From a virus: DNA of 31,008 nucleotides. Positions 6,483 to 29,347 of the stretch are shown piece after piece. The translations under genes and the position numbers were made by a program. The DNA lies in IMG/VR virus record IMGVR_UViG_3300010885_020426, positions 1 to 31,008 of that record. One strand, 5' to 3'. Each line of letters opens with the position of its first letter. Within the stretch, counting starts at the first letter, position 1. The notes under the pieces were generated by a model. The model was not told the DNA's origin and did no database searches. It saw only the letters and a program-made list of their open reading frames with translations.

Positions 6483-6490
6483 ATATTTAT
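6483..6490 (+). promoter_or_regulatory. ATATTTAT late-promoter candidate
   Basis: An exact ATATTTAT lies in the 30-base gap between two genes and 19 bases before the next ATG (6510). The same 8-mer occurs in six other gaps in the window. No -35 box is evident, as in T4 late promoters, which consist of a single 8-mer. Confidence 0.45.
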
Positions 6491-6509
6491 AATTACAAAA
6501 AGAAAAAAA

Positions 6510-7034
6510 ATGAATTTAATTAAATTGCTGAAGGAATCTATATTAGCTGAGGCAAAAAAGAAAAAACCTTCTTCAGGCTTGACTAAAAAAGAAAAATCTG
6601 CTGTTGCCAAAAAAGCTAGAGCAGGTAAAGACATAGGAAAAAAAGGAAAGGGGTTTGAAAAAGTAGCAAAAAAAGCTGCTAAAGAATATGGTAGCGAAAA
6701 AATTGGAAAGAAGGTCGCAGCGGCTAGTATGTGGAAAAACATAAAAAGAAAAGGTGCTAAGTTAAAAGAAGGTCATGATGGTATTGATGATGAAGGTAAC
6801 ATGGCTAAAAGCCAATTAAGTGCTATTATAAAATACGCCCAAGCTATACACGATAATTTAGAAGATGATACTCAATTAGACGCATGGGTACAATCTCACA
6901 TATCAAAAGCAGAGCAATTATTAGATCAAGTAGGTCACTTCTTAGCAGGAGAAGAAGAAGATAAACAAAAAGAACCTCAGTATATGCACAATCAACCTAT
7001 TATAGGTACTGTTTTTGAGAGAGGTATTCGATAA
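6510..7034 (+). CDS. Basic internal-protein candidate with cleavable-type leader
   Basis: A 174-residue protein of unknown function in three parts. Residues 1-14 form a short amphipathic leader ending LAE before Ala15, matching the (L/I)-x-E|A consensus of T4 prohead protease. Residues 16-90 are rich in Lys and Ala (GKKGKGFEKVAKKAAKEYG, KVAAASMWKNIKRKG), as expected for a DNA-neutralising protein. Residues 100-150 (KSQLSAIIKYAQAIHDNLED, DAWVQSHISKAEQLL) form a helical domain I have seen in other phage proteins. It ends TVFERGIR. The likely role is a packaged DNA-binding protein; this is inferred from composition and leader. Confidence 0.6.
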   Translation: MNLIKLLKESILAEAKKKKPSSGLTKKEKSAVAKKARAGKDIGKKGKGFEKVAKKAAKEYGSEKIGKKVAAASMWKNIKRKGAKLKEGHDGIDDEGNMAKSQLSAIIKYAQAIHDNLEDDTQLDAWVQSHISKAEQLLDQVGHFLAGEEEDKQKEPQYMHNQPIIGTVFERGIR

Positions 7035-7060
7035 ATACACTACATAATTAACAAAATTAT

Positions 7061-7681
7061 ATGGAAAAAGACATTATTGTGACAGTAATTACTGCTTTAA
7101 TAACTTCGGTGGTTGGTCCAATTGCTGTACACTATTCAAAAGAAATAGTGGAAAGAAGTAAAAATAAAGAAAGAGATCCTTTATCAGAATCTTTAAAGCT
7201 TAACCATACTATAACTGAGAAATTAGATGAGCTTTTGGATAAATTTGAAGGAGATAGAATTTGGATGCTTCAATTTCATAATGGTGGACATTTCTACCCA
7301 ACCGGTAAATCAATGCAAAAATTTAGCATGGTTTATGAACTTTTGAAACCCTCTACACCATCATGTCAAAGTAATTTCCAAAACATACCTTCTAGTTTAT
7401 TTAGCAAGTCTATAAACAGTCTTTATAATGGAGAAATACTTCATTTTGATACATCAAAAGATGATTATAATGATAATATTGGATTTACCACTATAATATC
7501 AAATTCTGGAATTGTGAGTAGTTATGTCATTCCTGTGTTTAGTATAAAAAATGAATTTGTAGCTATTGTGGGTATAGATTATGTTAGCTCTTCTAAAACA
7601 TTAGGAAAAGAAGAAATGTCTGCTTTGAATATAGGATTATCTACAATAGGCGGAGTATTGAATGATTATTTAAAAACATAA
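7061..7681 (+). CDS. Membrane-anchored GAF-like protein
   Basis: A 206-residue protein with one predicted N-terminal membrane helix (about 5-25, IVTVITALITSVVGPIAV), a charged linker that may be a short coiled coil (about 27-62), and a globular domain from about 65. The latter contains RIWMLQFHNGGHFYPTGKS and SSYVIPVFSIKNEFVAIVGI, which look like the strands of a GAF/PAS-type sensor domain. Similar QFHNGG proteins occur in other phages, from memory. No kinase, cyclase or HD domain is attached, so any signal output must be through a partner. It lies between a basic protein and a leader-bearing protein and starts 26 bases after the upstream stop. Confidence 0.6.
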   Translation: MEKDIIVTVITALITSVVGPIAVHYSKEIVERSKNKERDPLSESLKLNHTITEKLDELLDKFEGDRIWMLQFHNGGHFYPTGKSMQKFSMVYELLKPSTPSCQSNFQNIPSSLFSKSINSLYNGEILHFDTSKDDYNDNIGFTTIISNSGIVSSYVIPVFSIKNEFVAIVGIDYVSSSKTLGKEEMSALNIGLSTIGGVLNDYLKT

Positions 7682-7684
7682 AAA

Positions 7685-8263
7685 ATGAAACCTAATTTCT
7701 ATAAAATATTTAAAGATAGGCTTTTTGAAGCTGAAGAAGAAGAATCTGAAAAAAAAGATAAAAAAGAAGATAAAGATAAAAAAGTAAAAATAGAAACAGA
7801 ATCTACTTTAGATAAAGTATTGAAGAAATCTAAGAAGCTTCCTGCTGTATTGTCTAAATTGATGACTACTCAAGACAGTTACAACAAAAAAGCAGAAAAA
7901 GAATTAAGAGAGGTGGTGTCTGATATAAGGTGTGTGTCCTACAGACCAACCACATTTAGAGTAATAATACCAAATAGTAATTATTTTGATATTATATATG
8001 ATCCAACTCCTCTACAGATTGACTATGAAGAAGACTATAATCCTATAGAATTGTTTACTATAAGCGTATTAGGTAAAAGATATAGTATGGGAAACAGATC
8101 AGAGTTGGAGCAGTGCATCGACTACGTAAATACCCTATTAAAATCAAACCCTATAACTAAAAAAGAAGAACCACAAGAACCTGAAGCCGTAGGCGGAGAA
8201 CCAATCCCCGAAGAACCAAAAGCTGAGGAACCACCAGCAGAGGAAAAAGAACCAAAAAAATAA
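7685..8263 (+). CDS. Leader-bearing charged protein, internal virion candidate
   Basis: A 192-residue protein of unknown function. Its first 15 residues, MKPNFYKIFKDRLFE before Ala16, match an (L/I)-x-E|A cleavage site. A stretch of Glu/Lys follows (about 17-45), then a compact mixed alpha/beta domain (about 55-155, with SDIRCVSYRPTTFRVIIPNS and YFDIIYDP), and finally a Pro/Glu-rich tail (about 160-192). The compact domain suggests a folded core carried between disordered tails. It starts three bases after the upstream stop and ends six bases before the metallopeptidase gene. Confidence 0.55.
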   Translation: MKPNFYKIFKDRLFEAEEEESEKKDKKEDKDKKVKIETESTLDKVLKKSKKLPAVLSKLMTTQDSYNKKAEKELREVVSDIRCVSYRPTTFRVIIPNSNYFDIIYDPTPLQIDYEEDYNPIELFTISVLGKRYSMGNRSELEQCIDYVNTLLKSNPITKKEEPQEPEAVGGEPIPEEPKAEEPPAEEKEPKK

Positions 8264-8269
8264 AGAACA

Positions 8270-8704
8270 ATGATATTCCAAAATAGTCAAACTACTAGTA
8301 AACCAATTATGGTTTCTAATAATAACATATCTCCATTTTTAGCAGAGATAACTAAATACATGGAATCAAAAGGAGTACAACTTACTCCGCTACCTAAAGT
8401 AGTTATAAACAGAGACAACAAATATGAATTTGACCCTTTTGGAAAAACAGCTTATTACGACCCTGAAAATAAGATAGTAGTATTGTTTGTAGCAGGGAGG
8501 CACATTAAAGACATTTTAAGAAGCTTTGCACACGAGATGATACACCACAGTCAAAACATAACTAATATGTTTAATTCATCTCATTTAGGTGCCCTAGGCA
8601 ATCCTAGATATGCTGAAAATGATGAGCATTTAAGAAATATGGAAAAAGACGCTTATTTGCGTGGCAATATTCTCTTCAGGGACTTTGAGGATCAATATAA
8701 ATAA
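8270..8704 (+). CDS. HExxH zinc metallopeptidase-like protein
   Basis: A 144-residue minimal zincin. The zinc-binding motif is His88-Glu89-Met-Ile-His92 (in RSFAHEMIHHSQN), and the downstream helix NMEKDAYLRG supplies a likely third ligand, Glu125, in the gluzincin arrangement. The preceding strand IVVLFVAGRH and the Pro/Tyr-rich region (FGKTAYYDPENK) fit the small phage peptidase type. There is no signal peptide. Substrate is unknown; possible roles are processing of a virion protein or cleavage of a host protein. It sits one base before the terminase ATG, so it may be expressed with head genes. Confidence 0.75.
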   Translation: MIFQNSQTTSKPIMVSNNNISPFLAEITKYMESKGVQLTPLPKVVINRDNKYEFDPFGKTAYYDPENKIVVLFVAGRHIKDILRSFAHEMIHHSQNITNMFNSSHLGALGNPRYAENDEHLRNMEKDAYLRGNILFRDFEDQYK

Positions 8705-8705
8705 A

Positions 8706-10292
8706 ATGGCAGAAGAAAAACAAATATCAATAAAGGAAATAATAAAACAGGAATACTTAAAATGTGCTTCTGATCCTATATATTTCCTAAAAAAATACGT
8801 TTATATACAGACTAGTGAAGGCAGAATGCTATTCAATCCATTTTTGTTTCAAGAAAAATTACTACATCTAATAAGTAAACACGATAGAACTATTATATTA
8901 AAGTCTAGACAGCTAGGAATAACTACTTTATCTGCTGCATATTCTTTATGGTTAATGATATTCAATAAGGATCAATCAATACTTGCACTAGCCCCAACAC
9001 AGGATAAAGCAAGAAATATTGTAGATAAAATAAGGTTCGCATATAAAGAATTGCCTTCTTGGCTAAAAGTAGCCTCAATAGAGGACAATAAATTAAGTTT
9101 AATACTAGCTAATGGTTCAAAAGTTAGAGCCGCTTCAGGAGCTTCTGAGAGTGCTAGGGGGTATACCGCAAACGTTCTTATACTAGATGAGGCTGCTTTC
9201 ATAGAAAACGCAGAAGAATTGTGGGGTTCTGCCCAACAAACTCTTGCTTCAGGTAATGCAAGAGCAATAATATTATCTACCCCTAACGGTATGCAAGGGT
9301 TTTTTCACCAAATGTGGTCAGACGCTGAAATAGGAGACAATAATTTTATACCGATTAAGTTAAAATGGGACGTACATCCCAAAAGAGACCAAAAATGGAG
9401 AGATGATCAAGACAAAGAATTAGGAAAAAGGATGGCATCGCAGGAATGTGACGCTTCTTTCTTGTCATCAGGGGATACTTATTTTGAATCAGAGGATATA
9501 GACTACTATGTTAAGAATATAGAAGAGCCTATTGAGATGAGGGGCATGCAGAGAGACTATTGGATTTGGGAATATGTTGATTATAATAGAACATATATGG
9601 CAATAGTTGATACTGCCAAAGGAGACGGATCTGACAGTTCTACTATACAAGTAATTGATGTGTATTCAGGCAACCAAGTAGCAGAGTATAAAGGTCAAAT
9701 AGAAACAAAAATGCTGTCTAGCTTTGCTATTACAGTATGTATGGAGTACAACAGCGCACTACTAGTTATAGAAAACACAGGATTGGGACATTCAGTAGTA
9801 AGTGATGTGTTAGAAATGGGTTATCCTAACATATATTACTCCCCTAAAGGAGACACGTTGAACGTTTCTCAATATATGACACAATTCTATGAATATGATA
9901 CATCAAGAATGACTGCAGGTTTTACAACTTCAACTAAAACAAGACCTGAAGTACTATTATCTATGAGAACTTATGTAAAAGAACACTCAATAAGAATAAG
10001 ATCTATTAGAACAATAAATGAGATGAAGACATTTATTTGGAAAAATAGTAAACCGCAAGCACAAGCAGGTTATAATGATGACTTGGTTATGCCATATGCA
10101 ATAGGATTACATTTAAGAGACAGTGCTATACAATACAAGTCACAAGGAGTGGACATGCAAAGGGCTGTTTTGAATAACATATCTAAACAAAGTTCGTATG
10201 TGCAAGCTTTTAATGGACAAAAACCTGTACAAAACCCATATGATTTTCAAGTGAATGGTCAAGTAGAAGATATAACTTGGTTAGTAAGATGA
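8706..10292 (+). CDS. terL: Terminase large subunit (T4 gp17-like)
   Basis: This ATP-driven DNA-packaging motor is 528 residues long from the ATG at 8706. A longer frame begins at 8661, but that start lies inside the preceding peptidase gene, and 8706 has the usual A-rich context (ataaaATG). The ATPase domain has Walker A KSRQLGITT (66-74), Walker B VLILDEAAF (157-165) and the coupling motif ILSTPNG (189-195). The RNase H-like nuclease has Asp302 (AIVDTAKGDGSD), Glu356 (VIENTGLG) and Asp458/459 (AGYNDDLV). All key residues are present. No small terminase subunit is seen in the window. The gene is followed by a 74-base gap with a promoter motif, then the portal gene. Confidence 0.96.
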   Translation: MAEEKQISIKEIIKQEYLKCASDPIYFLKKYVYIQTSEGRMLFNPFLFQEKLLHLISKHDRTIILKSRQLGITTLSAAYSLWLMIFNKDQSILALAPTQDKARNIVDKIRFAYKELPSWLKVASIEDNKLSLILANGSKVRAASGASESARGYTANVLILDEAAFIENAEELWGSAQQTLASGNARAIILSTPNGMQGFFHQMWSDAEIGDNNFIPIKLKWDVHPKRDQKWRDDQDKELGKRMASQECDASFLSSGDTYFESEDIDYYVKNIEEPIEMRGMQRDYWIWEYVDYNRTYMAIVDTAKGDGSDSSTIQVIDVYSGNQVAEYKGQIETKMLSSFAITVCMEYNSALLVIENTGLGHSVVSDVLEMGYPNIYYSPKGDTLNVSQYMTQFYEYDTSRMTAGFTTSTKTRPEVLLSMRTYVKEHSIRIRSIRTINEMKTFIWKNSKPQAQAGYNDDLVMPYAIGLHLRDSAIQYKSQGVDMQRAVLNNISKQSSYVQAFNGQKPVQNPYDFQVNGQVEDITWLVR

Positions 10293-10301
10293 TAATATAT
10301 T

Positions 10302-10309
10302 ATATTTAT
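10302..10309 (+). promoter_or_regulatory. ATATTTAT late-promoter candidate before portal
   Basis: An exact ATATTTAT in the 74-base terminase-portal gap, 57 bases before the portal ATG. The gap is otherwise A/T-only sequence with no clear hairpin. Confidence 0.45.
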
Positions 10310-10366
10310 GTATATATGTATATCTTTGTACAATAAAAAATACAATAAAACAAAAAAATAATAGAA

Positions 10367-13300
10367 ATGGTTGATCGTACACTGTGGCCTAGACTTAGGA
10401 GAATGTTTTCAACAGATGTTGTAATAAGAAATATAGGAGGAACCAAACTAAAAGTTATGGATGTGGAACGCATTCAGAGTTTTGGCCAACTTCAAACAAA
10501 TTCTCTTGTAGATAGATTTACACGCCTTCATAAGGCAGGGCAAAGAATGCAATTCAATCCCACACTAAATTACCAAACTTTAAGATTACAATTATATTCT
10601 GATTATGAAGCAATGGATACAGACGGTATCATCGCATCAGTATTAGACATTCTCTGTGAAGAAGCTACTTTAAAAGGAGATACTGGGGAGGTTCTTACAA
10701 TTAGAAGTTCTAACGAAAATATTCAAAAAGTATTGTATAATTTATTTTACGATGTATTGAATATAGAATTTAATCTTCCTATGTGGATTAGATCAATGTG
10801 TAAATATGGTGACATGTTTTTACATTTAGAGATTGCTGAAAAATATGGCATATACATGGCTAGACCGTTGTCTGTATATGATATGATTAGAGAAGAAGGC
10901 CAAGATCCTAACAATCCATCTTATATTAGATTTGTTTATGATCCTGTATCAGTAGCCGGAGGTACAACAGCTACTAAAAATAAAGAAACTTTTGAGAATT
11001 TTGAGATTGCCCACTTTAGATTGCTTACAGATACTAACTATTTACCATTTGGTAGATCTTTTATAGAACCTGCTAGAAAATATTTTAAGCAATATGTGTT
11101 AATGATGGATGCTATGTTGTTGCATCGTATTATGAGAGCACCTGAAAAAAGAGTATTTTACATAAATGTAGGAAATATTCCGCCTAATGAAGTTGATGCT
11201 TTCATTCAAAAGACAGTAATGTCTATGAAAAAAACTCCATTTATGGACCAAAATACAGGAGATTATAACTTGAAGTTTAATGTTCAAAACATGCTTGAAG
11301 ATTTTTATATTCCTGTTAGACCTGGTGACACTACTACAAAGATAGATACTGCTAAGGGATTAGAATATGCGGGTATAGAGGACGTTGAATTTCTTAGAGA
11401 TTTGATGTTAGGATCGTTGAAAGTTCCTAAATCTTTTTTGAATTATTCAGATGAATTGAATGGAAAATGTATTCATTCGGATACTAAAATACCTTTATTA
11501 TCAGGAGAAGAGATGACCATAAAGGAGATATCTGATTTATTTGAAAACGGAAATGATCCAAATCTTTGGGTTTACTCTTATGACAAAGAGAGTAATAGTA
11601 TTATACCAGGAAAAGTAGTGTTAGCAAAGAAAACTAGATTAAACGCAAATTTAGTTAAAATTACTTTGGATAATGGAGAGTCTATTATAACAACTCCTGA
11701 TCATGGATTTTTACTAAAGGGCGGAGAAAGGATAAATGCGGAGAATTTAAAAGAAGGAGATTCTTTACAAGCTGTATATAGGGAAAATAGAAAAATAAGA
11801 AACCAACAAAACCCATATGAGCACGTATATCAACCTAATTTAAATAAATGGCAACCTACACATAAAATGGTTGATGAGTGGTTAAACGGAAAAATATTAA
11901 ACAATGGTTTTGATGAGCAAGGTTTGTTTAGTAGGGATTCTATGATTGTAGTTCATCATAAAAATTTTGATAGATATAACAACCATCCTGACAATTTACA
12001 AAGATGTTCTTTTAGAGAGCATTCTGATATACATATTTTAAATGCTAAAAATGGAATATGGAGTGAAGAGGCCAAAATTAAAGCTAAAAATACAAAAAAC
12101 ACTGTTGAGTACAAATTAAAAGCATCTAAAATAGGAAAAGAGAATATGGCTAAACAATGTAAAAAAGATCCTAATGCTAAAAACAGAGTTAGGGACATTT
12201 GGATAAGTAAAACATTTGAGGAAAGATCCGCTCTTACAAAATCTAGGGTAACTGATGAAACAAGAGACAAGTGTAGAAAAAATGGTAAAAAAAGTTATTT
12301 ATTGCATAGCGAAAATCTTTTAAAAGCTTATAAAGATAAATTTAAAGGAGAAAGACATGATTTGAGAAGAGAGAATAGTGTAGTATGGGTAGATAGGCCT
12401 TCTATAGAAGAAATTATATCTTTTATAGAGTCTCATGACAATATAAATGATATAAATAAACCTAGAAAACTTGCTAAAGCTATGGGGTATTCTATACATG
12501 TTTTTGAAGATGCTATAAAAATGGCAGGGTGGGACATAGAAGAATTCTTTAATGAATATACGGGTTTTTTAAAAGGCAGGCATAAATATATTAGGAGAGA
12601 TTATTTAATACAGATTTTATCTAGTTGTAGCTCTTTAAAAGAATTTACTAACAAGTACGGAGTAGGCAGAAAAGGTATTAAATTATTTAATAAAATATTA
12701 GGTGAAAATATTGAAAAACATTTAAATACCACATATAATCACAAAGTAATAAGTGTTGAGTATTTAGATTACACTTCAGATACCTACAATATGGAAGTTT
12801 ATGACAAAAATGAAAATCATAATTTTTTAACTTCTTCTGGTGTTGTAATAAAAAACTCAACAATTTCTGCGCTCGACGTCAGGTTCAGCAGGACTATAGA
12901 AAGAATACAAAGAATTATAATAAGCGAGTTAGAAAAAATAGCTTTGATACATCTTTATGTCCAAGGATATGAAGACGCTGATTTAGTTAATTTCAAATTG
13001 TCATTAAACAATCCTTCTATTATTTATGAGCAGGAAAAAATAGCTCTACTAAAAGAAAAATTCAGTTTAGCTTCTGATATCATGGATAAGAAGTTAATGT
13101 CTTCTGATTGGATTGCTGACAAAATATTCCAAATGAGCGAAGATCAGCTTAATGAACAGAGAGAATTAGTGGTGGAGGATGTAAAAAGAATATACAGGTA
13201 CAACCAAATTGAAAACGAAGGGAACGATCCTACTGTATCAGGAGAATCTTATGGAACTCCTCACGACTTAGCATCTGTTTACAACGGGGCTAACAAGAAG

Positions 13301-13606
13301 CAAGAAGTACCGGACGGATATAATGAGAAGGAACCAAATCCTGTAGGAAGACCTAAAGAGAAATCCTCTATATATGGAACAGATAAATCATCATTTGGTA
13401 GAGATCCTTTAGGAAAATCTCAAAATACGGGAGTAAAATCTAATTATAGTGATAGAGATATAAAAGCTAAACCATTTGCAATGGAGGCTATTAGAGGATT
13501 ACAGTCTATAAAAAATAAGAAAATGGTGCTATTTGAGCAAAAAAATTCAGAACCTAGTATTTTAGATGAGAAAAATGTATTAGGTGATATTGATAATGAT
13601 AATTAG
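10367..13606 (+). CDS. Portal protein (T4 gp20-like) interrupted by an intein
   Basis: The portal forms the dodecameric ring at the head vertex through which DNA passes and which nucleates prohead assembly. The precursor is 1079 residues; removing the intein (368-830) leaves 616, somewhat longer than T4 gp20 (524). The N-extein has the gp20-like core (MQFNPTLNYQTLRLQLYSDY, MDTDGIIASVLDILCEEATL, HFRLLTDTNYLPFGRSFIEP, KVPKSFLNYSDELNGK). The C-extein resumes with STISALDVRFSRTIERIQRI, so the flanks join to a continuous, conserved portal segment. The C-terminal 110 residues are Gly/Lys/Asp-rich (NPVGRPKEKSS, RDPLGKSQN) and may be disordered. The gene ends with TAG just before another promoter motif. 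Confidence 0.95.
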   Translation: MVDRTLWPRLRRMFSTDVVIRNIGGTKLKVMDVERIQSFGQLQTNSLVDRFTRLHKAGQRMQFNPTLNYQTLRLQLYSDYEAMDTDGIIASVLDILCEEATLKGDTGEVLTIRSSNENIQKVLYNLFYDVLNIEFNLPMWIRSMCKYGDMFLHLEIAEKYGIYMARPLSVYDMIREEGQDPNNPSYIRFVYDPVSVAGGTTATKNKETFENFEIAHFRLLTDTNYLPFGRSFIEPARKYFKQYVLMMDAMLLHRIMRAPEKRVFYINVGNIPPNEVDAFIQKTVMSMKKTPFMDQNTGDYNLKFNVQNMLEDFYIPVRPGDTTTKIDTAKGLEYAGIEDVEFLRDLMLGSLKVPKSFLNYSDELNGKCIHSDTKIPLLSGEEMTIKEISDLFENGNDPNLWVYSYDKESNSIIPGKVVLAKKTRLNANLVKITLDNGESIITTPDHGFLLKGGERINAENLKEGDSLQAVYRENRKIRNQQNPYEHVYQPNLNKWQPTHKMVDEWLNGKILNNGFDEQGLFSRDSMIVVHHKNFDRYNNHPDNLQRCSFREHSDIHILNAKNGIWSEEAKIKAKNTKNTVEYKLKASKIGKENMAKQCKKDPNAKNRVRDIWISKTFEERSALTKSRVTDETRDKCRKNGKKSYLLHSENLLKAYKDKFKGERHDLRRENSVVWVDRPSIEEIISFIESHDNINDINKPRKLAKAMGYSIHVFEDAIKMAGWDIEEFFNEYTGFLKGRHKYIRRDYLIQILSSCSSLKEFTNKYGVGRKGIKLFNKILGENIEKHLNTTYNHKVISVEYLDYTSDTYNMEVYDKNENHNFLTSSGVVIKNSTISALDVRFSRTIERIQRIIISELEKIALIHLYVQGYEDADLVNFKLSLNNPSIIYEQEKIALLKEKFSLASDIMDKKLMSSDWIADKIFQMSEDQLNEQRELVVEDVKRIYRYNQIENEGNDPTVSGESYGTPHDLASVYNGANKKQEVPDGYNEKEPNPVGRPKEKSSIYGTDKSSFGRDPLGKSQNTGVKSNYSDRDIKAKPFAMEAIRGLQSIKNKKMVLFEQKNSEPSILDEKNVLGDIDNDN
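11468..12856 (+). mobile_element. Portal intein with HNH homing endonuclease
   Basis: A 463-residue in-frame intein. It starts with Cys368 (CIHSDTKIPLL, block A), has the TxxH motif of block B (Thr443-Pro-Asp-His446 in SIITTPDHGFLL) and ends NMEVYDKNENHNFLTSSG, then VVIKN before Ser831. The terminal Asn is present, but the residue before it is Lys rather than the usual His. The endonuclease is HNH type: VVHHKNFDRYNNHPDNLQRC followed by EHSDIH (His530, His531, Asn539, Asn543, His552). Downstream are two helix-turn-helix-like stretches (about 685-735 and 755-800) that could bind the target site. The element would home into intein-free portal genes of related phages. Confidence 0.92.
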
Positions 13607-13608
13607 TA

Positions 13609-13616
13609 ATATTTAT
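13609..13616 (+). promoter_or_regulatory. ATATTTAT late-promoter candidate
   Basis: An exact ATATTTAT begins two bases after the portal stop codon and 17 bases before the next ATG (13634), inside a 27-base gap. Confidence 0.45.
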
Positions 13617-13633
13617 TATAGATATAATTAAAA

Positions 13634-14473
13634 ATGAAGCTAAAACATAATAAGCTAAGAAATACGTCAATTCTATTTGAATTATTAGTTAGACAGATAA
13701 CTACAGACACTCTTAATAATAGAGATTCTAAAGCTGTTGATATAATAAAGAAGCATTATAACAATAATGAAATAGCAAAAGAATATAAAATATACAAGAC
13801 TCTTTCTGAGAATAAAAATTTATCTGAAGGTAAAGCCAATATCCTTTTAAACATAGCTATTGATTCATATAAAAAGATTAATAAAAGTTTATTAAGTAAG
13901 CAGAAATACGATTTGATATCAGCTATAAAATCCAATTATAATATTAATGAGTTTTTTAAAGCTAATGTTGACAATTACAAAACATTAGCCTCTATTTACA
14001 TGCTGTTCGAGGGCACAGCATCAGATAAAGTAGACCCAGGCAGCGAAGCTAAATACAGATTTTCTATAATGGAGAGTATTTGTGCTCCTAAAGAAAATTT
14101 AGAAAAAAATGAAATACTAGAGCAGTATAAATCTATGGATAAGGGAAGCAAAGCTGTGGTATACAAACTCCTCATCAATAAGTTTAACGAGAAATATTCA
14201 GATTTAGATGACAATCAAAAAACTTTATTAAAAGAATACATATCCAACATATCTACCGCAAACAGTTTACGAGAGCACATAAACAATGAGATCTACAAAG
14301 TAAGAGCAGAGTTCAACAGCTATTTAAAGACTCAAGAAAACACAGCAAGAAAAGTAAAAATAAACGAAGTTTTAAATTTCACAGAAATTATACCCGACAA
14401 CAAACAAGTGTGTGAAAAGGATATAAATAACTTACTATACTACTACGAGCTACTAAAAGAGTTTAAAAAGTAA
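13634..14473 (+). CDS. Conserved head-module protein of unknown function
   Basis: A 279-residue, almost entirely helical, charged protein. It opens MKLKHNKLRNTSILFELLVR, a start I associate with proteins next to the portal gene in distant T4-like phages. A Lys/Asn-rich middle and NEVLNFTEIIPDNKQVCEKD near the C-terminus are the other recognisable features. No catalytic motif is visible. The position between portal and protease is that of the T4 prohead core genes 67 and 68, but it is larger than either and I see no sequence match. A core or scaffold-accessory role is inferred from location only. Confidence 0.6.
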   Translation: MKLKHNKLRNTSILFELLVRQITTDTLNNRDSKAVDIIKKHYNNNEIAKEYKIYKTLSENKNLSEGKANILLNIAIDSYKKINKSLLSKQKYDLISAIKSNYNINEFFKANVDNYKTLASIYMLFEGTASDKVDPGSEAKYRFSIMESICAPKENLEKNEILEQYKSMDKGSKAVVYKLLINKFNEKYSDLDDNQKTLLKEYISNISTANSLREHINNEIYKVRAEFNSYLKTQENTARKVKINEVLNFTEIIPDNKQVCEKDINNLLYYYELLKEFKK

Positions 14474-14477
14474 AAAT

Positions 14478-15389
14478 ATGAATTTAATAGACATACTAAA
14501 AAATTACATATTTGAACAAGATTCTAATCAGAATGATCAAATTGAAGAAATTGTAGACCAATTTTACGATACCTCAGATTTTGAAAATGTATTTTCTAAT
14601 TTGATCAAGGCCTATGATGTCTATAAAGGTATGTCTACGGCAAACACGCAAAAGGAGAAAGAAAAGGCTAAAGATGAGAGAGATAAATCATTAATTAATT
14701 TAGTGCTTGAAATAAGTAGATTTACTGATAATCCCGAAGAAAAAAAAGCAATAGTAGAAGACATAGTAAAAAATAAAGTACAAAACAATGATCTATTAGC
14801 TAAAAATATAAAACTATTCTACGAAAATTACAAAGATGTTAAGCCTCCTTCCTCATATTCCAAAATAACGAGAAAAGAGAGATATGACAAAAGTACGTTA
14901 TCTTATAAGGATATGAAGGCGAAGTGGAATAAAAAGCAGAGAGAAAAGACTAGCAATAAACCCGAAGAAGTAAAAGGAAATAAATCTAAATTCAAAAAAG
15001 ATAGTGTTCATAAAATAATTATTAAAACTCCATATAGTAAAGATACAAAATCACAATGGATTACTATATACAGAAAATTATCAGATTATGATAAATCTTT
15101 ATTAGATGAATATTCAAATTTAAACAAAACTAAGGGTATAAATTACACTTATTTAGATGAAAATGGTAACGAGTATCCTGATTCTGATAATCACAAACAA
15201 GATATATATGTAATAGCTAAAAAAACATATTCTGTTAGGTTAAAAGAAGAAAAAGAATATGGATACTATTGTGTATTAGATAAAAATAAAGCACAAGAAA
15301 TAAAAAAACTGCAAGAAGATTTGATAAATAATAAAACTATCGAAAAAGGTTTTTTTGGTTTAATAAAAATAGAAACCATGATTAAATAA
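14478..15389 (+). CDS. Head-module protein, first half of a tandem duplication
   Basis: A 303-residue Lys/Glu-rich protein of unknown function. Its leader, MNLIDILKNYIFE before Gln14, resembles the candidate prohead-targeting leaders. Residues about 22-120 (EEIVDQFYDTSDFENVFSNL, DNPEEKKAIVEDIVKNKVQN) are repeated in the frame that continues after the stop. Residues about 170-303 form a separate domain (SVHKIIIKTPYSKD, SQWITIYRKLSDYDK). The gene ends at TAA 15387-15389, but the same frame stays open to 16037, so this may be the N-terminal part of a once longer protein. Confidence 0.6.
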   Translation: MNLIDILKNYIFEQDSNQNDQIEEIVDQFYDTSDFENVFSNLIKAYDVYKGMSTANTQKEKEKAKDERDKSLINLVLEISRFTDNPEEKKAIVEDIVKNKVQNNDLLAKNIKLFYENYKDVKPPSSYSKITRKERYDKSTLSYKDMKAKWNKKQREKTSNKPEEVKGNKSKFKKDSVHKIIIKTPYSKDTKSQWITIYRKLSDYDKSLLDEYSNLNKTKGINYTYLDENGNEYPDSDNHKQDIYVIAKKTYSVRLKEEKEYGYYCVLDKNKAQEIKKLQEDLINNKTIEKGFFGLIKIETMIK

Positions 15390-15686
15390 AAAACTCAAAA
15401 CAGTTCATTTTATAATCCTATAGAAAAATACAAAGTAGACGAATATATATCTGAATTAAAAGAATTAACAAAAGATAAAAAAATAAAACAAAATAAAGAG
15501 TTCCAAAAAAATAACACCAAAGTAGTAACACTGTCTCCTGAAATAAAAGACAAAATATATAATTTTTATGATGTAGCAAATTTTAAATTTCCCGCATTAT
15601 TAAAAGCCCATAATGACTATCGAACAAGCTTATCTGCCACAAGAACAAAAGAAGAGAAGGATAAATATAAAGATAAGAGGGATAAA
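15390..15686 (+). other. Open in-frame stretch without a start codon, coding-like
   Basis: These 297 bases continue the frame of the gene at 14478 with no further stop and no ATG. Their translation (DKIYNFYDVANFKFPALLKA, SLSATRTKEEKDKYKDKRDK) aligns with residues about 23-70 of the upstream protein. The stretch is therefore coding sequence in origin. It is either read through, started at a non-ATG codon, or untranslated after a nonsense mutation. Confidence 0.6.
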
Positions 15687-16037
15687 ATGATAATTGAGTT
15701 AATATCTAAAGTAACTAATTTTACAGACAAACTAGAAGAGCAAGAAGCAATAGTAGAAGATATAGTAACAAACAAAATACCTTCTGATTCTAATTTATTA
15801 GCTGAACTAATACAAAAATTTTATATTAAAAATTTTGAAAAAAATAAAAAAATAACGGAAATGTCAAGTACGGGGGGAGGAGCACCCGCAGCAACACAAG
15901 CTACATACACACCCGGTTCCGGTGAAGGAGTTGCACAAAAATATGCTTTTGCTCCGATGAAAAAAAGAAAAGATGAAAATCACGACTTATCTAAAAAATA
16001 CAAAGAATTATTTAAAAAAGAAATAAAAGATTTATAA
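15687..16037 (+). CDS. Second half of the duplication, ATG-initiated remnant
   Basis: A 116-residue frame beginning at the first ATG after the in-frame TAA. It starts in the middle of the duplicated domain (MIIELISKVTNFTDKLEEQE, then AIVEDIVTNKIP), so this ATG is probably not the natural start of the domain. The C-terminal part is different from the first copy: a Gly/Ala/Thr linker (SSTGGGAPAATQATYTPGSG) and a basic end (FAPMKKRKDENHD). Either it is a truncated but functional small protein or the distal part of a split 519-codon gene. No function is known. Confidence 0.4.
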   Translation: MIIELISKVTNFTDKLEEQEAIVEDIVTNKIPSDSNLLAELIQKFYIKNFEKNKKITEMSSTGGGAPAATQATYTPGSGEGVAQKYAFAPMKKRKDENHDLSKKYKELFKKEIKDL

Positions 16038-16044
16038 TATTTAT
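16037..16044 (+). promoter_or_regulatory. ATATTTAT motif abutting a start codon
   Basis: An exact ATATTTAT overlaps the preceding TAA by one base and lies only four bases before ATG 16049. If it is a -10-type element, transcription would begin at or after that ATG, giving a leaderless message or favouring the in-frame ATG at 16091. Confidence 0.35.
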
Positions 16045-16048
16045 CAGT

Positions 16049-18157: not shown

Positions 18158-18165
18158 ATGATTTC

Positions 18166-18456
18166 ATGAAGAGGTACATATGGGGATTCAATGATAACGA
18201 TGATCCATATCAAAAAAGCATGGGGGTAGAAACCAATAACATAGTATCTCAATTCATAACTGAACTTGGTCCCGAAGGCATTAAAATCTTCAACAGCTAT
18301 GCTCCAAAGGGTTACGAAATAAAAAGTGTAGATGATTTACAGCATTATCCTACTGACGCCAAAGGAGGATATCCTCAAGCTACTATGTTCAATCCTGATA
18401 AATTAACTTCAAGAAGCGGCAGAGTAGCTGAAAATAGTAAAAAAATAAAAAAATGA
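18166..18456 (+). CDS. Small conserved protein upstream of the prohead protease
   Basis: A 96-residue protein I do not recognise. It has a mixed composition with an aromatic start (MKRYIWGFNDNDDPY), a central ELGPEGIKIFNSYAPKGYEI and a basic tail (SRSGRVAENSKKIKK). The stop overlaps the protease start (ATGA at 18453-18456), so the two are probably translationally coupled and the protein may work with the protease or be packaged with it. Another ATG at 18158 opens only a three-codon frame and was rejected. Confidence 0.55.
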   Translation: MKRYIWGFNDNDDPYQKSMGVETNNIVSQFITELGPEGIKIFNSYAPKGYEIKSVDDLQHYPTDAKGGYPQATMFNPDKLTSRSGRVAENSKKIKK

Positions 18457-19547
18457 GATTATTATCAGAATACTACGAAGTAAGTTTAAATCAGATACAA
18501 CTGACAGAAGCTGTTAACTCAGCTCCTGGCAGCCCTATAATGTTAAGAGGCATAATAATACAGAGAGCTGATGCTAAAAACAGAAATGGTAGAATATACC
18601 CAAAAGATGTACTTAAAAGAGAAATAGATAAGTATATTGAGAACATGGTTGATATGAATAGAGCATTGGGCGAATTAGACCATTGTTTTGTAGAAAACAA
18701 CTTTGATGTACTTACAGAAAGTGGGTGGAAATCCTTTAACGATGTTATTGAAGGAGAGAATGTTCTATCTTATAACATCAAAAACGGTGCTTTAGAGTAC
18801 AAACCTGTTTTAAAAAAGATAGAATCTACATACTCAGGAGATTCTTATTCTATAAAAGCTAGGAATATAAATACTCAAGTTACTGAAAATCACAAATTTA
18901 TATTAGAAGATAGGTATGGAAATAAAGAGTTTCATACTATTAAAGAAATATTTGAAAATAGAGTAAAATATAATAAATCTAAAATAATAAAAATACAAGA
19001 AGATAATTCAAATATAGATGAGTTGTCTGAAATATATGTTGATGATGACATGCAAATAGAAAAGCTACACCACGAAGGAAACATCTATTGTTTGGAAGTA
19101 AAAGATAATAACTCTTTTTATGTCAGACAGAATGATAAATGTTTTATCACAGGTAATTCAGCAGAATCCGTAGTAAACTTAAAAAACGTATCACACAACA
19201 TAAAAAGCATCTATTGGAAAGGAAATGATGTGGTAGCAGATCTAGAAATACTAGATGCTCCCGAATTCCCCGCAGGCAGAATAGCCGCAGGCCTACTAAG
19301 AAGAAAGATTCCAGTAGGGATAAGCTCAAGAGGAATGGGAAGTGTGGATGAAGCTAAAGACGGAACAGTAACAGTAAATGATGACTTTAATCTACTAACA
19401 TTTGACTTAGTATCATTTGAAAGTACTCAAGGAGCAAACATGTATTTACAAGAAGGAAAGACAATATCTAACGATAAAAATTCTAAAATTGACAGCATAT
19501 TAAAAGAACTAATATGCATAAATGCAGGGTACTGTCCTTGTGATTAA
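18453..19547 (+). CDS. Prohead maturation protease (T4 gp21-like) interrupted by a mini-intein
   Basis: This serine protease cleaves scaffold, core and capsid proteins during head maturation. The precursor is 364 residues, or 206 after removal of the intein (78-235), close to T4 gp21 (212). The N-extein carries RADAKNRNGRIYPKDVL and ends in ALGELDH, whose His77 is the predicted catalytic histidine. The C-extein begins SAESVVNLKNVSHNIKSIYW and contains VGISSRGMGSV (288-297) with the probable catalytic serine. The N-terminus has LTE before Ala20, a likely self-cleavage site. The C-terminus is unusually Cys-rich (LICINAGYCPCD). A terminator follows 15 bases after the stop. Confidence 0.93.
   Translation: MRLLSEYYEVSLNQIQLTEAVNSAPGSPIMLRGIIIQRADAKNRNGRIYPKDVLKREIDKYIENMVDMNRALGELDHCFVENNFDVLTESGWKSFNDVIEGENVLSYNIKNGALEYKPVLKKIESTYSGDSYSIKARNINTQVTENHKFILEDRYGNKEFHTIKEIFENRVKYNKSKIIKIQEDNSNIDELSEIYVDDDMQIEKLHHEGNIYCLEVKDNNSFYVRQNDKCFITGNSAESVVNLKNVSHNIKSIYWKGNDVVADLEILDAPEFPAGRIAAGLLRRKIPVGISSRGMGSVDEAKDGTVTVNDDFNLLTFDLVSFESTQGANMYLQEGKTISNDKNSKIDSILKELICINAGYCPCD
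18684..19157 (+). mobile_element. Mini-intein in the protease active site
   Basis: A 158-residue insertion starting with Cys78 (CFVENNFDVLTESGWKSF, block A), containing TxxH of block B (Thr-Glu-Asn-His in VTENHKFIL) and ending YCLEVKDNNSFYVR, then CFITGN before Ser236 (blocks F and G). It has splicing blocks at both ends but no room for, or trace of, an endonuclease. The penultimate residue is Gly instead of His. Joining the flanks gives GELDH-SAESVVNLKNVSH, the uninterrupted prohead-protease motif. Loss of the endonuclease means it can no longer home by itself. Confidence 0.92.
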
Positions 19548-19562
19548 AAAAATTTATTATTT

Positions 19563-19586
19563 AATGCTAAAAAATTTAGCATTTTT
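19563..19586 (+). terminator. Rho-independent terminator after the protease gene
   Basis: A perfect 9-bp stem (AATGCTAAA with TTTAGCATT, loop AAA) is followed directly by T-rich sequence. It lies 15 bases after the protease stop and 11 bases before the next promoter motif. Confidence 0.75.
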
Positions 19587-19597
19587 AATAGTTTATG

Positions 19598-19605
19598 ATA
19601 TTTAT
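19598..19605 (+). promoter_or_regulatory. ATATTTAT late-promoter candidate for scaffold and capsid genes
   Basis: An exact ATATTTAT directly follows a terminator and precedes the scaffold gene by 126 bases. Being between a terminator and two highly expressed structural genes, this copy has the strongest contextual support as a promoter. Confidence 0.55.
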
Positions 19606-19731
19606 TGTTATAATACAAATTAATGTATTATTTTTTACTGCACTGAATACTCTTTCTCTATAAAGAGTCGCATAATAAAAAACCACAATTATTCCTAAAA
19701 TAGGGATACAATCAAAAAACAAAATTTTAAA
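19606..19731 (+). promoter_or_regulatory. Structured 5' leader of the scaffold-capsid unit
   Basis: This is the longest clearly non-coding leader in the window. It contains a perfect 7-bp hairpin at 19649-19668 (ACTCTTT with AAAGAGT) and a smaller 6-bp hairpin with one G-T pair at 19692-19706 (TTCCTA with TAGGGA). The last bases before the ATG are A-rich. The hairpins may stabilise the abundant message or adjust translation; this is inferred. Confidence 0.45.
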
Positions 19732-20766
19732 ATGAACTCAAACTTGTTAAAAGAAGCAATTGCTGATGCAGATGCTATCAAAAAATTAGCCATTGAAAAT
19801 GCAAAGGCATCGTTAAATGAAGCTTTCGATTCTAAAATCAAATCTATGTTAGCTGCTAGATTAAACGAAGAAGCAGACGACGAAATGGAAGAAGGCGATG
19901 AAGACACTATGGAAGAAGCTCGTAGAAAAAAAGCTCCTGTTGAAGACGACGAAGACGACATAGAAGACGAAGCTCCTAGAGAAACTAAAAAAGCTCCTAT
20001 TGAAGACGACGAAGAAGAAGATGAAACAGACGAAGCTTATGACATTGACGAAATCTTAGCCGAAATGGAAGATTATGATAAAATGGAAGAAAACGAAGAA
20101 GATGACACAATGGACGAAGGTTCTTACGAAGAGCAAGACGAGAACTACGATGAGATGGACGAAGAAGTAAATTGGTATCGTAGAAAAAAAGGATTAGATG
20201 AAGCAGAAGAAGATGGAGAAGATGGTGAAGATGATGAAAAGCATGTAGACGAAGAACTTGATCTTGAAGCATTGATTCGTGAAATGGAAGGCGATGATGA
20301 TAAATTACACGAAGAAGATGAAACAGACGAAGAAGAAGAAAACAAATATAAAGCTCCCAAAGGCAAAGGCAAAAATGCTGAAATGGAAGAAATGAAAGAA
20401 GAGCTTTATGAAAATAGAAGACAAGTTAAAAAACTAATTCAAAAAGTTCAAGAATCTAATCTAATCAACGCAAAACTTCTCTATCTAAACAAAGTTCTAC
20501 GTAACCACAATCTTAACGAACAACAAAAAATTAAAGTTATAACTGCTTTTGACAGAGCAACAACTGCTAAAGAAGCTAAAATCGTATTTGAATCTTTGAA
20601 CGAAGCTTTCTCTGTAAAAATTGAAAGAAGAAAAAATGGTTTAAAAGAATCTTTTGGATTTGCATCTAAGGCAGCAGGAACATCTACTAAGCGTGAAATC
20701 ATTACTGAAGTAGATAGTCAAGTTTCAAGATGGCAAAAATTAGCCGGAATAAACAGGTATTTGTAA
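19732..20766 (+). CDS. Prohead core scaffold protein (T4 gp22-like)
   Basis: A 344-residue, extremely acidic protein placed directly before the capsid gene, as gene 22 is before 23 in T4. Residues 1-46 are helical (LLKEAIADADAIKKLAIENA). About 47-215 is dominated by Glu and Asp. About 215-300 is a probable coiled coil (ENRRQVKKLIQKVQESNLIN), and the C-terminus is basic and ends RWQKLAGINRYL. Several (L/I)-x-E|A matches (SLNEAF at 28-31 and again near 290) would let the protease degrade it. Function is assigned by gene order, charge and coiled coil. Arginine codons shift towards CGT here, as in the capsid gene. Confidence 0.85.
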   Translation: MNSNLLKEAIADADAIKKLAIENAKASLNEAFDSKIKSMLAARLNEEADDEMEEGDEDTMEEARRKKAPVEDDEDDIEDEAPRETKKAPIEDDEEEDETDEAYDIDEILAEMEDYDKMEENEEDDTMDEGSYEEQDENYDEMDEEVNWYRRKKGLDEAEEDGEDGEDDEKHVDEELDLEALIREMEGDDDKLHEEDETDEEEENKYKAPKGKGKNAEMEEMKEELYENRRQVKKLIQKVQESNLINAKLLYLNKVLRNHNLNEQQKIKVITAFDRATTAKEAKIVFESLNEAFSVKIERRKNGLKESFGFASKAAGTSTKREIITEVDSQVSRWQKLAGINRYL

Positions 20767-20787
20767 AAAAAATAAAAAAACAAAAAA

Positions 20788-22425
20788 ATGAACGTACAAC
20801 AATTATTGGAATCATCCAATCCACACACTTCAATTATGAACGAGGCCAAGCGTCTTGTTAAGAAATGGAGTAAAACCGGATTGTTAGAAGGTAGGGATCT
20901 TGAAGCCAATCCTTACGGAAAAGAAACTATGGCTCTTATTTTAGAGAACCAAGCAAAACAACTATTAGTAGAACAGTCACAGACTGGTACTGGTGCTTCT
21001 TTTACTGCAGGTCAAGGTGAGCAGTGGTCAGGCGTAGCTTTACCATTGATTCGTAAAATCTTCGCTGATATCTCAGCTAAAGAATTCGTAAGCGTACAAC
21101 CAATGACTCTTCCTGCAGGATTGGTATTCTTCCTTGAGTTTAAATATGGTACTAACGTTCCTGGTGCTACTTCTTCAAACAGATTTACTGTAGGAGATAG
21201 CATGTATGGTACAACTAACGTTAAAGACGTTAACCCTTTCGGTGGCCTTTATGGTGCTGGTAGATTTGGTTTTTCAATCAATGATGCTTCTGCATCTTTA
21301 CAGTACACCGCTACTACAGCATCTGCTGCTGATGTAAACTTTAATACTTTGTATAGTGCATCTGTTGCATCAACTACTAGTACTGTACGTAGATTGACTT
21401 TTGCTAGTGCTTCTACTACTGCATCTGCTATGGACACTAACGGTGTACGTGCTTTTGTATTATCAGGTAGTGGTATTACTGAAACTAACTTGTTAGCTGA
21501 GTTTACTACTTTCAATCCTATCAACGGAACTTTGACTATGATTGTTAGCGGTTCTGCAATTGGAGCAACTGGATTTGCTAACCTATTCTATCAAAAACAA
21601 CCTGCTGACAACAGCCGTGGTGATTTTGAAGATACTACAACTACTCCTTTGACTGGTTCTAATTCAATCCCTGAAATTAACGTAGAATTACGTTCTGAAG
21701 GTGTTATTGCTAAGACTAGAAAATTGAAAGCAAAATGGACTCCGGAATTTAGCCAAGACCTTAATGCTTATCAGTCTTTGGATGCTGAAGCTGAATTAAC
21801 TTCAACTTTGTCTGAATACATTTCTTTGGAAATTGATTTGGAATTGATTGACATGGTACTTCAGAATGCAAACACTACTGATTACTGGTCTGCTAAAAAT
21901 AACAACTTTTACGATAGACCAAGTGGAACTTGGACTGTAAACGCAGTTGCTAGTGGTGGTTACTATAACACACAGGGTCAGTGGTTCGCTACTTTAGGTA
22001 CTAAGATCCAAAGTGTTTCTCGTACTATCCACAAGAAAACAATGCGTGGTCAAGCAAACGTTTTGATGTGTTCTCCTGATATCGCTACAATTATCGAGTC
22101 TATCCCTGGATACGCTGCTGATACTGATGGTAGCAAGCAAGAGTTCGCAATGGGATCTCACAAAGCAGGTCAATTGAATAGCCGTTACAAAGTGTTTGTT
22201 AACCCATACATGCAAGAAAACGCTATCTTGATGGCTTATAAAGGATCACAGTTCTTAGAAACAGGTGCTGCATTCTGTCCTTATATTCCTCTTATCATGA
22301 CTCCTTTATTGTACGATCCTGAAACGTTCACCCCACGTAAAGGATTGCTCACGAGGTACGCAAAGAAGATGCTAAGAAGTGAATTTTTTGGTAAAGTATT
22401 AGTAGCTGACTTAGGCTCTATCTAA
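20788..22425 (+). CDS. Major capsid protein (T4 gp23-like)
   Basis: A 545-residue HK97-fold capsid precursor. The N-terminal delta region (1-62) contains KKWSKTGLLEGRDLEANPYG, reminiscent of the KPLLEGEG segment of T4 gp23, and LVE before Gln63, near the position of the T4 cleavage (Glu65). The shell domain includes VSVQPMTLPAGLVFFLEFKY (VQPM is shared with T4), KAKWTPEFSQDLNAYQSLDA, YISLEIDLELIDMVL and the C-terminal LLTRYAKKMLRSEFFGKVLV. Residues about 165-285 form a Ser/Thr/Ala-rich insertion typical of phage surface domains. Codon use favours CGT, GGT, GCT and C-ending codons, fitting very high expression. A strong terminator follows the stop. Confidence 0.95.
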   Translation: MNVQQLLESSNPHTSIMNEAKRLVKKWSKTGLLEGRDLEANPYGKETMALILENQAKQLLVEQSQTGTGASFTAGQGEQWSGVALPLIRKIFADISAKEFVSVQPMTLPAGLVFFLEFKYGTNVPGATSSNRFTVGDSMYGTTNVKDVNPFGGLYGAGRFGFSINDASASLQYTATTASAADVNFNTLYSASVASTTSTVRRLTFASASTTASAMDTNGVRAFVLSGSGITETNLLAEFTTFNPINGTLTMIVSGSAIGATGFANLFYQKQPADNSRGDFEDTTTTPLTGSNSIPEINVELRSEGVIAKTRKLKAKWTPEFSQDLNAYQSLDAEAELTSTLSEYISLEIDLELIDMVLQNANTTDYWSAKNNNFYDRPSGTWTVNAVASGGYYNTQGQWFATLGTKIQSVSRTIHKKTMRGQANVLMCSPDIATIIESIPGYAADTDGSKQEFAMGSHKAGQLNSRYKVFVNPYMQENAILMAYKGSQFLETGAAFCPYIPLIMTPLLYDPETFTPRKGLLTRYAKKMLRSEFFGKVLVADLGSI

Positions 22426-22444
22426 TTAAATCATCATAAAAAAT

Positions 22445-22477
22445 AAAAAAAGCGAGCGAAATATCTCGCTTTTTTTT
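22445..22477 (+). terminator. Strong Rho-independent terminator after the capsid gene
   Basis: A run of A, then GCGAG, an 8-base loop (22457-22464), CTCGC and a run of T form a stem of about 12 bp with a GC core. It is 20 bases after the capsid stop. The flanking A and T runs could also work on the other strand. Confidence 0.9.
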
Positions 22478-22510
22478 ATGTCTTTTATTTTGTAAAATAA
22501 GGAATTAATT

Positions 22511-23050
22511 ATGATTAAAAATACTAATTGTAGAGAATGTGGAAAAGAATTAGTAAAGAGACAAAAAGTATTTTGTTCTGTTTATTGTAAGCTTAGTAAC
22601 AAAGAATTTTTAGATAAAAGAAATTCTCCAAAAGAAAAACTTGATCCAAATTTAGCTGCAATATGTAAAATAACAGGTAAATACTACAACGACTATAAGA
22701 ACTATTCGGGAGCACTCACTAGACATCTTAGGAACTTCAACATTGAGCTAAAAGACATAAGTGAGTATTTTGATATAGTACCTAACCCTAATGCCTCTAA
22801 ATTGACTTATAATTGCAAATACTGCGATTGGAAAACTACAGATGTTGTAAATAAAACAGGATGCATAACTTCCCACATAGAAGATGTGCATAAAATATCT
22901 ATAGAAAACCATATTAAAAAATACACACAGGATGTAAAATACTTTTTAAAAAATAAATTAATTTTTATTGAATGTCAAATATGCGGTAAAAAATTAAAAA
23001 AATTAACAATAAGCCATTTGAATAAACATAAATTAAACGTAAGTCAATAA
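22511..23050 (+). CDS. Multi-zinc-finger protein of unknown function
   Basis: A 179-residue protein with three candidate zinc sites: Cys7, Cys10, Cys22 and Cys26 (NCRECGKELV and FCSVYC); Cys102, Cys105, His122 and His127 (YNCKYCDWKT and SHIEDVH); and Cys155, Cys158, His169 and His173 (ECQICGKKLK and SHLNKHK). The middle (ICKITGKYYNDYKNYSGALT) recalls zinc-finger segments attached to phage homing endonucleases, but no HNH, GIY-YIG or LAGLIDADG core is visible. It lies between the capsid terminator and the PhoH promoter, with no obvious promoter of its own. DNA or RNA binding is likely; the role is unknown. Confidence 0.65.
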   Translation: MIKNTNCRECGKELVKRQKVFCSVYCKLSNKEFLDKRNSPKEKLDPNLAAICKITGKYYNDYKNYSGALTRHLRNFNIELKDISEYFDIVPNPNASKLTYNCKYCDWKTTDVVNKTGCITSHIEDVHKISIENHIKKYTQDVKYFLKNKLIFIECQICGKKLKKLTISHLNKHKLNVSQ

Positions 23051-23083
23051 ATTAAAATTTGTTATTATCATCAAAGCGATTTG

Positions 23084-23091
23084 ATATTTAT
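23084..23091 (+). promoter_or_regulatory. ATATTTAT late-promoter candidate before phoH
   Basis: An exact ATATTTAT in the 55-base gap before phoH, 14 bases from its ATG. Confidence 0.45.
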
Positions 23092-23105
23092 AATAAATTT
23101 AAAAA

Positions 23106-23786
23106 ATGCACAACAACGATTCAAATCAGAGTACAGAAAAAAAAATCAAGGGCCAAATTAAGTTTTTAATTTCTTTAAATGATGAACAAAAAAGTTGTAA
23201 AACTACTATACTAAATAGTAAAATAACGGTTGTGCGAGGGCTTGCAGGTTCGGGTAAAACATTAATTGCTGCACAAGTAGCATTGGATATGTTGTTCAGA
23301 AAAGAAGTAGATAGAATAGTATTGACTAGACCTGCTGTATCAGCGGGAGAGGATTTGGGATATTTACCGGGAGACAAGGATGAGAAATTATCACCGTTTA
23401 CAGCAGCTATTTATGACAATATGAATGCGTTATATGATAAAGACAAAATTCAAAAAGAAATTCAAGAAGGCAAAATTGAAGTAATTCCTCTAGCATTTAT
23501 GAGAGGTAGGAATTTGAAGGATTGTTTAGTTGTAGTTGATGAAGCACAAAACATAACACACAAGCAAATGAAAATGTTGTTAGGTAGAATATGCGTAGGA
23601 ACAAAAATGATTTTGTGTGGTGACGTTGCTCAGATAGATTTAAAAGATGAAAAAACTAGTGGTTACGATTTCATATGTAATAAATTTAATAATGTAAGAG
23701 GGTTTTCTGTGGTGACTCTTAAAACAAATCACAGGGATCCTATAGTAGAGGAATTATTAGAAATATACACACAATATGAGAATTAG
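23106..23786 (+). CDS. phoH: PhoH-like ATPase
   Basis: A 226-residue P-loop ATPase of the PhoH family, common in large marine and freshwater phages. Walker A is GLAGSGKT (45-52), Walker B is VVVDEAQN (142-149), and the family motifs LTRPAVSAGEDLGYLPGD (73-90), MRGRNLKD and LKTNHRDP are all present. It lacks any added PIN or KH domain, so it is the short core form. PhoH proteins are linked to RNA metabolism, but the phage role is unsettled. It is placed between capsid and neck genes, which is unusual for a metabolic gene and suggests late expression. It ends with TAG. Confidence 0.95.
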   Translation: MHNNDSNQSTEKKIKGQIKFLISLNDEQKSCKTTILNSKITVVRGLAGSGKTLIAAQVALDMLFRKEVDRIVLTRPAVSAGEDLGYLPGDKDEKLSPFTAAIYDNMNALYDKDKIQKEIQEGKIEVIPLAFMRGRNLKDCLVVVDEAQNITHKQMKMLLGRICVGTKMILCGDVAQIDLKDEKTSGYDFICNKFNNVRGFSVVTLKTNHRDPIVEELLEIYTQYEN

Positions 23787-23788
23787 TT

Positions 23789-23796
23789 ATATTTAT
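23789..23796 (+). promoter_or_regulatory. ATATTTAT late-promoter candidate before the neck operon
   Basis: An exact ATATTTAT begins three bases after the phoH stop and ends 19 bases before ATG 23816. Its last four bases form the start of a dyad described separately. Confidence 0.45.
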
Positions 23797-29345: not shown

Positions 29346-29347
29346 AT

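Follow-up and report, generated by a model that had tools for sequence, protein, structure and literature searches.

The late promoters of phage T4, TATAAATA, work with gp55, gp33 and the gp45 clamp (PMC2988020, PMC7892883), and the clamp activates them (PMC2988020). Late promoters of KVP40, 44RR and S-PM2 are highly similar to those of T4, and in Aeh1 the -13/-12 positions are changed (PMC2988020). Microcystis phage Ma-LMM01 was reported to have no gp55 and host-type late promoters (PMC5780444); we considered it as a parallel and set it aside as a different case. Here we describe the 8-mer ATATTTAT (full form ATATTTATA), which recurs before genes of IMG/VR record IMGVR_UViG_3300010885_020426. 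The window analyzed is the complete 31,008-base record, its numbering is that of the record, and it is probably a genome fragment of a T4-superfamily phage. ATATTTATA before virion-gene operons is very probably the late-gene start signal of this phage and of its relatives.

The signal resembles a T4 late promoter in being a lone 8-bp element, with no -35 box, found before virion operons in phages that encode a protein with sigma region 2. Unlike T4's TATAAATA, the core here is TATTTATA, with T in place of A at what would be -10 and -9. The sigma-like protein has about 250 amino acids against the 185 of gp55, which it resembles only at the profile level, and in several lineages no clamp, clamp loader or PolB of the T4 type could be detected. 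The motif would thus act like a T4 late promoter, yet we do not file it as one because the consensus differs, similarity to gp55 shows only in profile comparison, and a general dependence on the clamp is unlikely. An earlier note on this DNA had likened the context to that of T4 late promoters; the link to virion genes, the strand specificity and the missing -35 element agree with this. As in KVP40, 44RR, S-PM2 and Aeh1, one late consensus varies by lineage, but in those phages the central AAA is kept or the left end is changed, whereas here the centre is changed. We rejected the idea of a T4 promoter lying on the opposite strand: although TATTTATA equals TATAAATA reverse-complemented, in register it differs by two central bases, and the strand bias follows the genes.

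The window holds 10 forward copies of ATATTTAT, one more than the nine of the earlier note, and 4 reverse copies. Seven of the forward copies lie in gaps, which make up about 3% of the window (906 non-coding bases of 30,807). The note had placed these seven, at coordinates that all proved exact, within the tiny non-coding share and in short gaps before + strand genes, which holds except that the copy at 16037 overlaps a stop codon by one base. The seven sites, and a copy that may be an eighth, are listed with the number of non-redundant orthologues of the following gene that have the core TATTTAT within 90 nt upstream.

6483..6490, + strand: ATATTTAT, 27 nt before gene 6510; core upstream of 5/5 orthologues
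10302..10309, + strand: ATATTTAT, 65 nt before the portal (gp20) gene 10367; core upstream of 52/74 orthologues
13609..13616, + strand: ATATTTAT, 25 nt before gene 13634; core upstream of 61/63 orthologues
16037..16044, + strand: ATATTTAT, weakest of the seven, 12 nt before gene 16049, one base shared with the stop codon; 3/13 orthologues
19598..19605, + strand: ATATTTAT, 134 nt before gene 19732 (scaffold position) and preceded by a weak A/T-rich hairpin
23084..23091, + strand: ATATTTAT, 22 nt before the PhoH-like gene 23106; core upstream of 28/34 orthologues
23789..23796, + strand: ATATTTAT, 27 nt before gene 23816 (head-tail adaptor); core upstream of 24/30 orthologues
24968..24975, + strand: ATATTTATA, possible eighth site, inside the end of gene 23816-24982 and 14 nt before gene 24982; core in 2/11 orthologues

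For the 19598 site, the core was absent within 90 nt in 14 orthologues, its own distance of 134 nt being beyond the range tested. The hairpin before it, between 19548 and 19598, consists of GCTAAAAAATTTAGC and then ATTTTT; the earlier note had taken it for a terminator, but it is weak and the terminator scanner makes no call. The remaining forward copies, 26977 and 30253, are within genes, and one reverse copy (15661) is inside 15390-15686, apparently part of a split gene.

ATATTTAT was present in 7 of the 14 gaps against a shuffled mean of 0.35, and 0 of 2000 shuffles reached seven. When the choice of the best 8-mer is allowed for, 12 of 500 shuffled gap sets reach seven, giving p of about 0.02 for the window alone, which by itself is suggestive, not conclusive. 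The whole-window total was mildly above expectation (14 vs. 8.3), and the count of one-mismatch variants proposed in the note gave no excess (148 vs. 156). With totals near expectation, the signal is one of position and strand and not of total number. The T4 consensus TATAAATA was not found on the gene strand in the tandem gaps of the window.

The relatives examined were Flavobacterium phage immuto, Microcystis phage Mel-JY01, Rhodothermus phage RM378 and 12 related IMG/VR contigs. Genes were called by a simple longest-ORF (open reading frame) rule, and only gaps between same-strand (tandem) genes were counted; a T4 control that included gaps shared by divergent genes looked two-stranded, and tandem-only gaps were used instead. 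In the 14 relatives without RM378, ATATTTAT was found in tandem gaps 209 times in the orientation of the genes and 13 times reversed, and shuffles gave 0.5 to 2.9 per genome. The enrichment upstream of genes anticipated in the note is thus clade-wide. The asymmetry has p 1e-46, a value not to be taken literally because related genomes are not independent. With the same procedure, T4 itself gave TATAAATA 3 to 0 in the gene orientation, and TATTTAT reversed only.

The consensus in the relatives is ATATTTATA, at a median of about 25 nt from the ATG and followed by an A-rich stretch. The base before TATTTAT, described in the earlier note as variable, is not fixed, but it is usually A (A or C in immuto), which makes ATATTTATA the better core. 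No other conserved upstream element, including a -35 box, was found at these sites. In three contigs (G002, G010 and G011), which group together, the signal is weaker and reads [AC]TATTTATT. Other recurrent upstream words, TCGTATCTTTATAGC in G004 and TATCTTTGC and TTAACCACTTAAA in G010, are probably early or middle promoters. In the part of the literature covered, we found no publication on the word as a phage promoter, none on Mel-JY01, and no promoter study of immuto.

Footprinting of the window genes showed the core upstream of operon heads, in the proportions listed above and in 32/74 orthologues of the terminase gene. In the same 90 nt it was absent from operon-internal genes: capsid (0/47), protease (0/34) and gene 25859 (0/30). 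In alignments anchored on the core the flanks are diverged, their major-base frequency averaging only 0.52-0.55, and the distance to the ATG is variable. Enrichment, strand bias and footprint in the relatives therefore provide independent confirmation of the signal.

Immuto is the nearest isolate to the window phage (capsid 54.7%, terminase 48%). It has a second promoter class, GTTGC and then TTCnTATATTTAGG, with the related early word TATATTTAGG; about 20 near-identical early promoters, GTTGC...TTCnTATATTTAGGTATCAATAATTAAAAC, precede small genes of no known function. The sigma-A promoter consensus of Bacteroidota is TTG / TAnnTTTG, which this class resembles in sequence. Like the motif, these early promoters include an upstream word rich in A and T and lie in gaps of the same kind; they differ in having two boxes at a fixed spacing. 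The early class maps to 22-26 and 61-76 kb and the late class is densest at 78-154 kb. With gene classes taken from the annotation of the immuto record, a late-type site was present within 110 nt of 12/27 virion or lysis genes vs. 1/24 replication or metabolic genes (p 0.001). Assigning each gene its nearest promoter over long distances was rejected, as it did not separate the classes (15/24 of the other genes were also "late"); the classes came apart only with the 110-nt window. The motif class is most naturally read as late, a timing that we infer from these gene associations.

It could be argued that the motif is just the -10 (-7) part of an ordinary sigma-A promoter of a Bacteroidota host, with no need for a phage sigma. 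The immuto early promoters do carry the related TATATTTAGG, and T-ATATTTA fits TAnnTTTG but for the last base. Nevertheless, this is quite unlikely. TTG at the -35 distance occurs in at most 5% of 222 late sites, as expected from the missing -35 box of the earlier note, against 89% of the 19 immuto early sites. At the motif there is neither the TTG box at the -33 distance nor a TAnnTTTG, since TTT is followed by A and different bases precede ATATTTAT; the T before ATATTTAT is not fixed, and in the late half of immuto CTATTTAT is as frequent as ATATTTAT. Moreover, the two classes share only 1 of 111 immuto gaps (p 0.005) and occupy different parts of the genome.

We regard as very unlikely that the word acts in RNA, as AUAUUUAU in the leader, where it would be a processing site, a stability element or a translation signal. 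A start codon always follows the word on the mRNA strand, with many of the copies 18-30 nt from the ATG; however, the distance ranges from 8 to over 60 nt, with a maximum of 134 nt in the window. The word is also restricted to operon heads, inner genes being without it, is nearly exclusive with early promoters, and adjoins the sigma gene in many relatives. A chance A/T-rich word from the composition of the short gaps is practically negligible, for although the gaps are very A/T rich and some shuffled gap sets of the window do yield an 8-mer in at least seven gaps, the relatives contradict it by their strand asymmetry over 14 genomes and by conservation at orthologous operon heads.

Weak matches to sigma region 2, at one place per genome, led to a protein family of about 250 amino acids. 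Members are present in immuto, Mel-JY01, RM378 and 10 of the 12 IMG/VR contigs (12 of 14 relatives plus RM378), and IMG/VR contains at least 590 related sigma loci. The protein is annotated as hypothetical in immuto, where its gene lies at 78150-78872, and likewise in Mel-JY01 and RM378. PHROG 1740 and PF04542 alone missed immuto and Mel-JY01, both of which were recovered with an iterated profile. PF04542 (Sigma70_r2) matches 6/12 members at E 0.1 or better, above its curated cut-off in G004 and G005. A Foldseek search against the PDB returned nearly only sigma factors, including T4 gp55 in the open complex; searching the PDB by sequence with the sigma profile yielded no useful match. In the profile comparison with gp55, region 2 aligned collinearly (E 1.2e-4, probability 55%). 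Y97 of T4 gp55 stacks on the -12 base (PMC7892883). In the tentative alignment, its counterpart is an invariant tyrosine, the -9 pocket residues N13 and H95 correspond to T31 and Y/F109, and the -8 residue T99 corresponds to G113 although the -8 base is unchanged. The pocket changes hint, and only hint, at a fit with a promoter that keeps A at -12 and has A to T at -9.

The motif was directly upstream of the sigma gene in 0/13 genomes and directly downstream in 8/13 (TTATTTAAA in RM378); around 80 sigma loci it occurs 155 times forward vs. 14 reverse. With no late motif before it, the sigma gene is probably expressed from a transcript that is made earlier. The family is the likely reader of the motif. 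RM378 is alike in having a distant member of the family, Rm378p020, and the stand-alone upstream word TTATTTAAA. It differs at the right end of the word (TATTTAA, 14 forward and 4 reverse) and in a second, more ordinary sigma factor, Rm378p144. The second, annotated sigma factor of RM378 has regions 2 and 4 (28329-28928 of the RM378 piece examined).

PolB with a gp44-like loader and a gp45-like clamp was found in Mel-JY01, G003, G004 and G005. In immuto (complete), G001, G002, G010 and G011, PolA was found and no T4-type clamp, clamp loader or PolB was detected, although this could still reflect extreme divergence. A replicase swap thus appears within one phage group. Both replicase groups have the motif; within the PolA group, the sigma gene is present in immuto, G001 and G002. 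The clamp coupling of T4 is apparently not universal here, because several lineages have PolA and no detectable clamp, and clamp dependence is unlikely to be general among the motif-bearing phages. The window phage has G001 among its nearest relatives and therefore probably belongs to the PolA group.

Taken as a whole, the best explanation, which we hold with considerable confidence, is that ATATTTAT is a late-promoter core read by the host polymerase with a phage sigma-like protein. The core would serve a large T4-superfamily group, probably mostly phages of Bacteroidota, as a -10-type element that stands alone at the heads of virion operons and starts their transcription. The reader would most probably be the host RNA polymerase with the phage-encoded protein, which has sigma region 2 and an additional helical part at its C terminus and may be a highly diverged counterpart of gp55, and whose synthesis would then switch on the late operons. 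We infer that the window phage carries such a gene. The interpretation of the earlier note, a late promoter recognized by a phage-encoded sigma-like factor, is supported, and the search it proposed for a gp55-like gene led to the sigma-like family in the relatives.

Several observations weigh against this explanation. The sigma gene is absent from the 31-kb contig of the window, and it was not found in the fragments G010 and G011, where the motif is also weaker. The window copies at 16037 and 24968 are not well conserved in relatives. A 484-kb relative, LR756508, has a sigma homologue, yet no ATATTTAT in the 50 kb around its capsid gene; in LR756508.1 130001-180000, TATTTAA occurs 4 times forward and 0 reverse, a weak hint that this form may take the place of ATATTTAT. 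The AlphaFold2 model of the sigma-like protein is moderate (pLDDT 75, pTM 0.46), the PDB structure matches are weak, with E-values of 0.06 or more, and the gp55 match has only the 55% probability given above, with 4.5% for a narrower alignment.

More broadly, we lean towards a widespread, undescribed late-transcription system that combines a T4-type promoter with two central changes and an unannotated sigma family, in clamp/PolB and PolA lineages; late transcription would be uncoupled from the clamp in the latter, and promoter and sigma would have co-evolved away from those of T4. The motif would let late genes be mapped across a large set of T4-superfamily phages that are common in the environment and poorly annotated, and the work suggests what a protein listed as hypothetical in isolates may do. 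The same promoter in clamp-bearing and apparently clamp-less lineages would make the origin or loss of the T4 coupling of late transcription to replication testable, and the two-base difference from T4 would be a clean case for sigma-promoter co-evolution.

The window encodes T4-superfamily virion genes, all on one strand: terminase, portal with an intein, prohead protease with an intein, capsid, PhoH-like ATPase, head-tail adaptor and tail fibre. The main genes are the following.

10367..13606, + strand: portal protein gp20 with an HNH-type intein at about residues 379-830 (PF07230, PF14890, phrog_213)
13634..14473, + strand: conserved gene of function not known, with the best-conserved promoter (no PHROG match; 63 non-redundant orthologues)
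18453-19547: prohead protease gp21 with an intein at about residues 87-224
20788..22425, + strand: major capsid protein gp23, operon-internal, no motif of its own (phrog_138; core upstream of 0/47 orthologues)
23106..23786, + strand: PhoH-like ATPase (phrog_170)
23816..24982, + strand: head-tail adaptor, gp13-like (phrog_211)

Inteins are thus present in two adjacent capsid genes, those of portal gp20 and prohead protease gp21. A BED-like zinc-finger protein (22511-23050) is encoded between the capsid and PhoH genes; it has no late motif before its gene and is preceded by a good intrinsic terminator (22445-22476). The region 14478-16037 resembles a single split gene, as the ORFs 14478-15389 and 15687-16037 have stretches alike and an unannotated 297-b piece lies between them. 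Repeats are found near both ends of the contig: the 633-amino acid ORF at 202-2103 consists mostly of tandem repeats of roughly 20-30 residues each (...ISDEQFEWCDDDLKRKYIEKRIE...), and 29346-31008 has low-complexity, tail-fibre-like repeats (SSYSLSSSYA...ASYVVTAQTASYVLNA).

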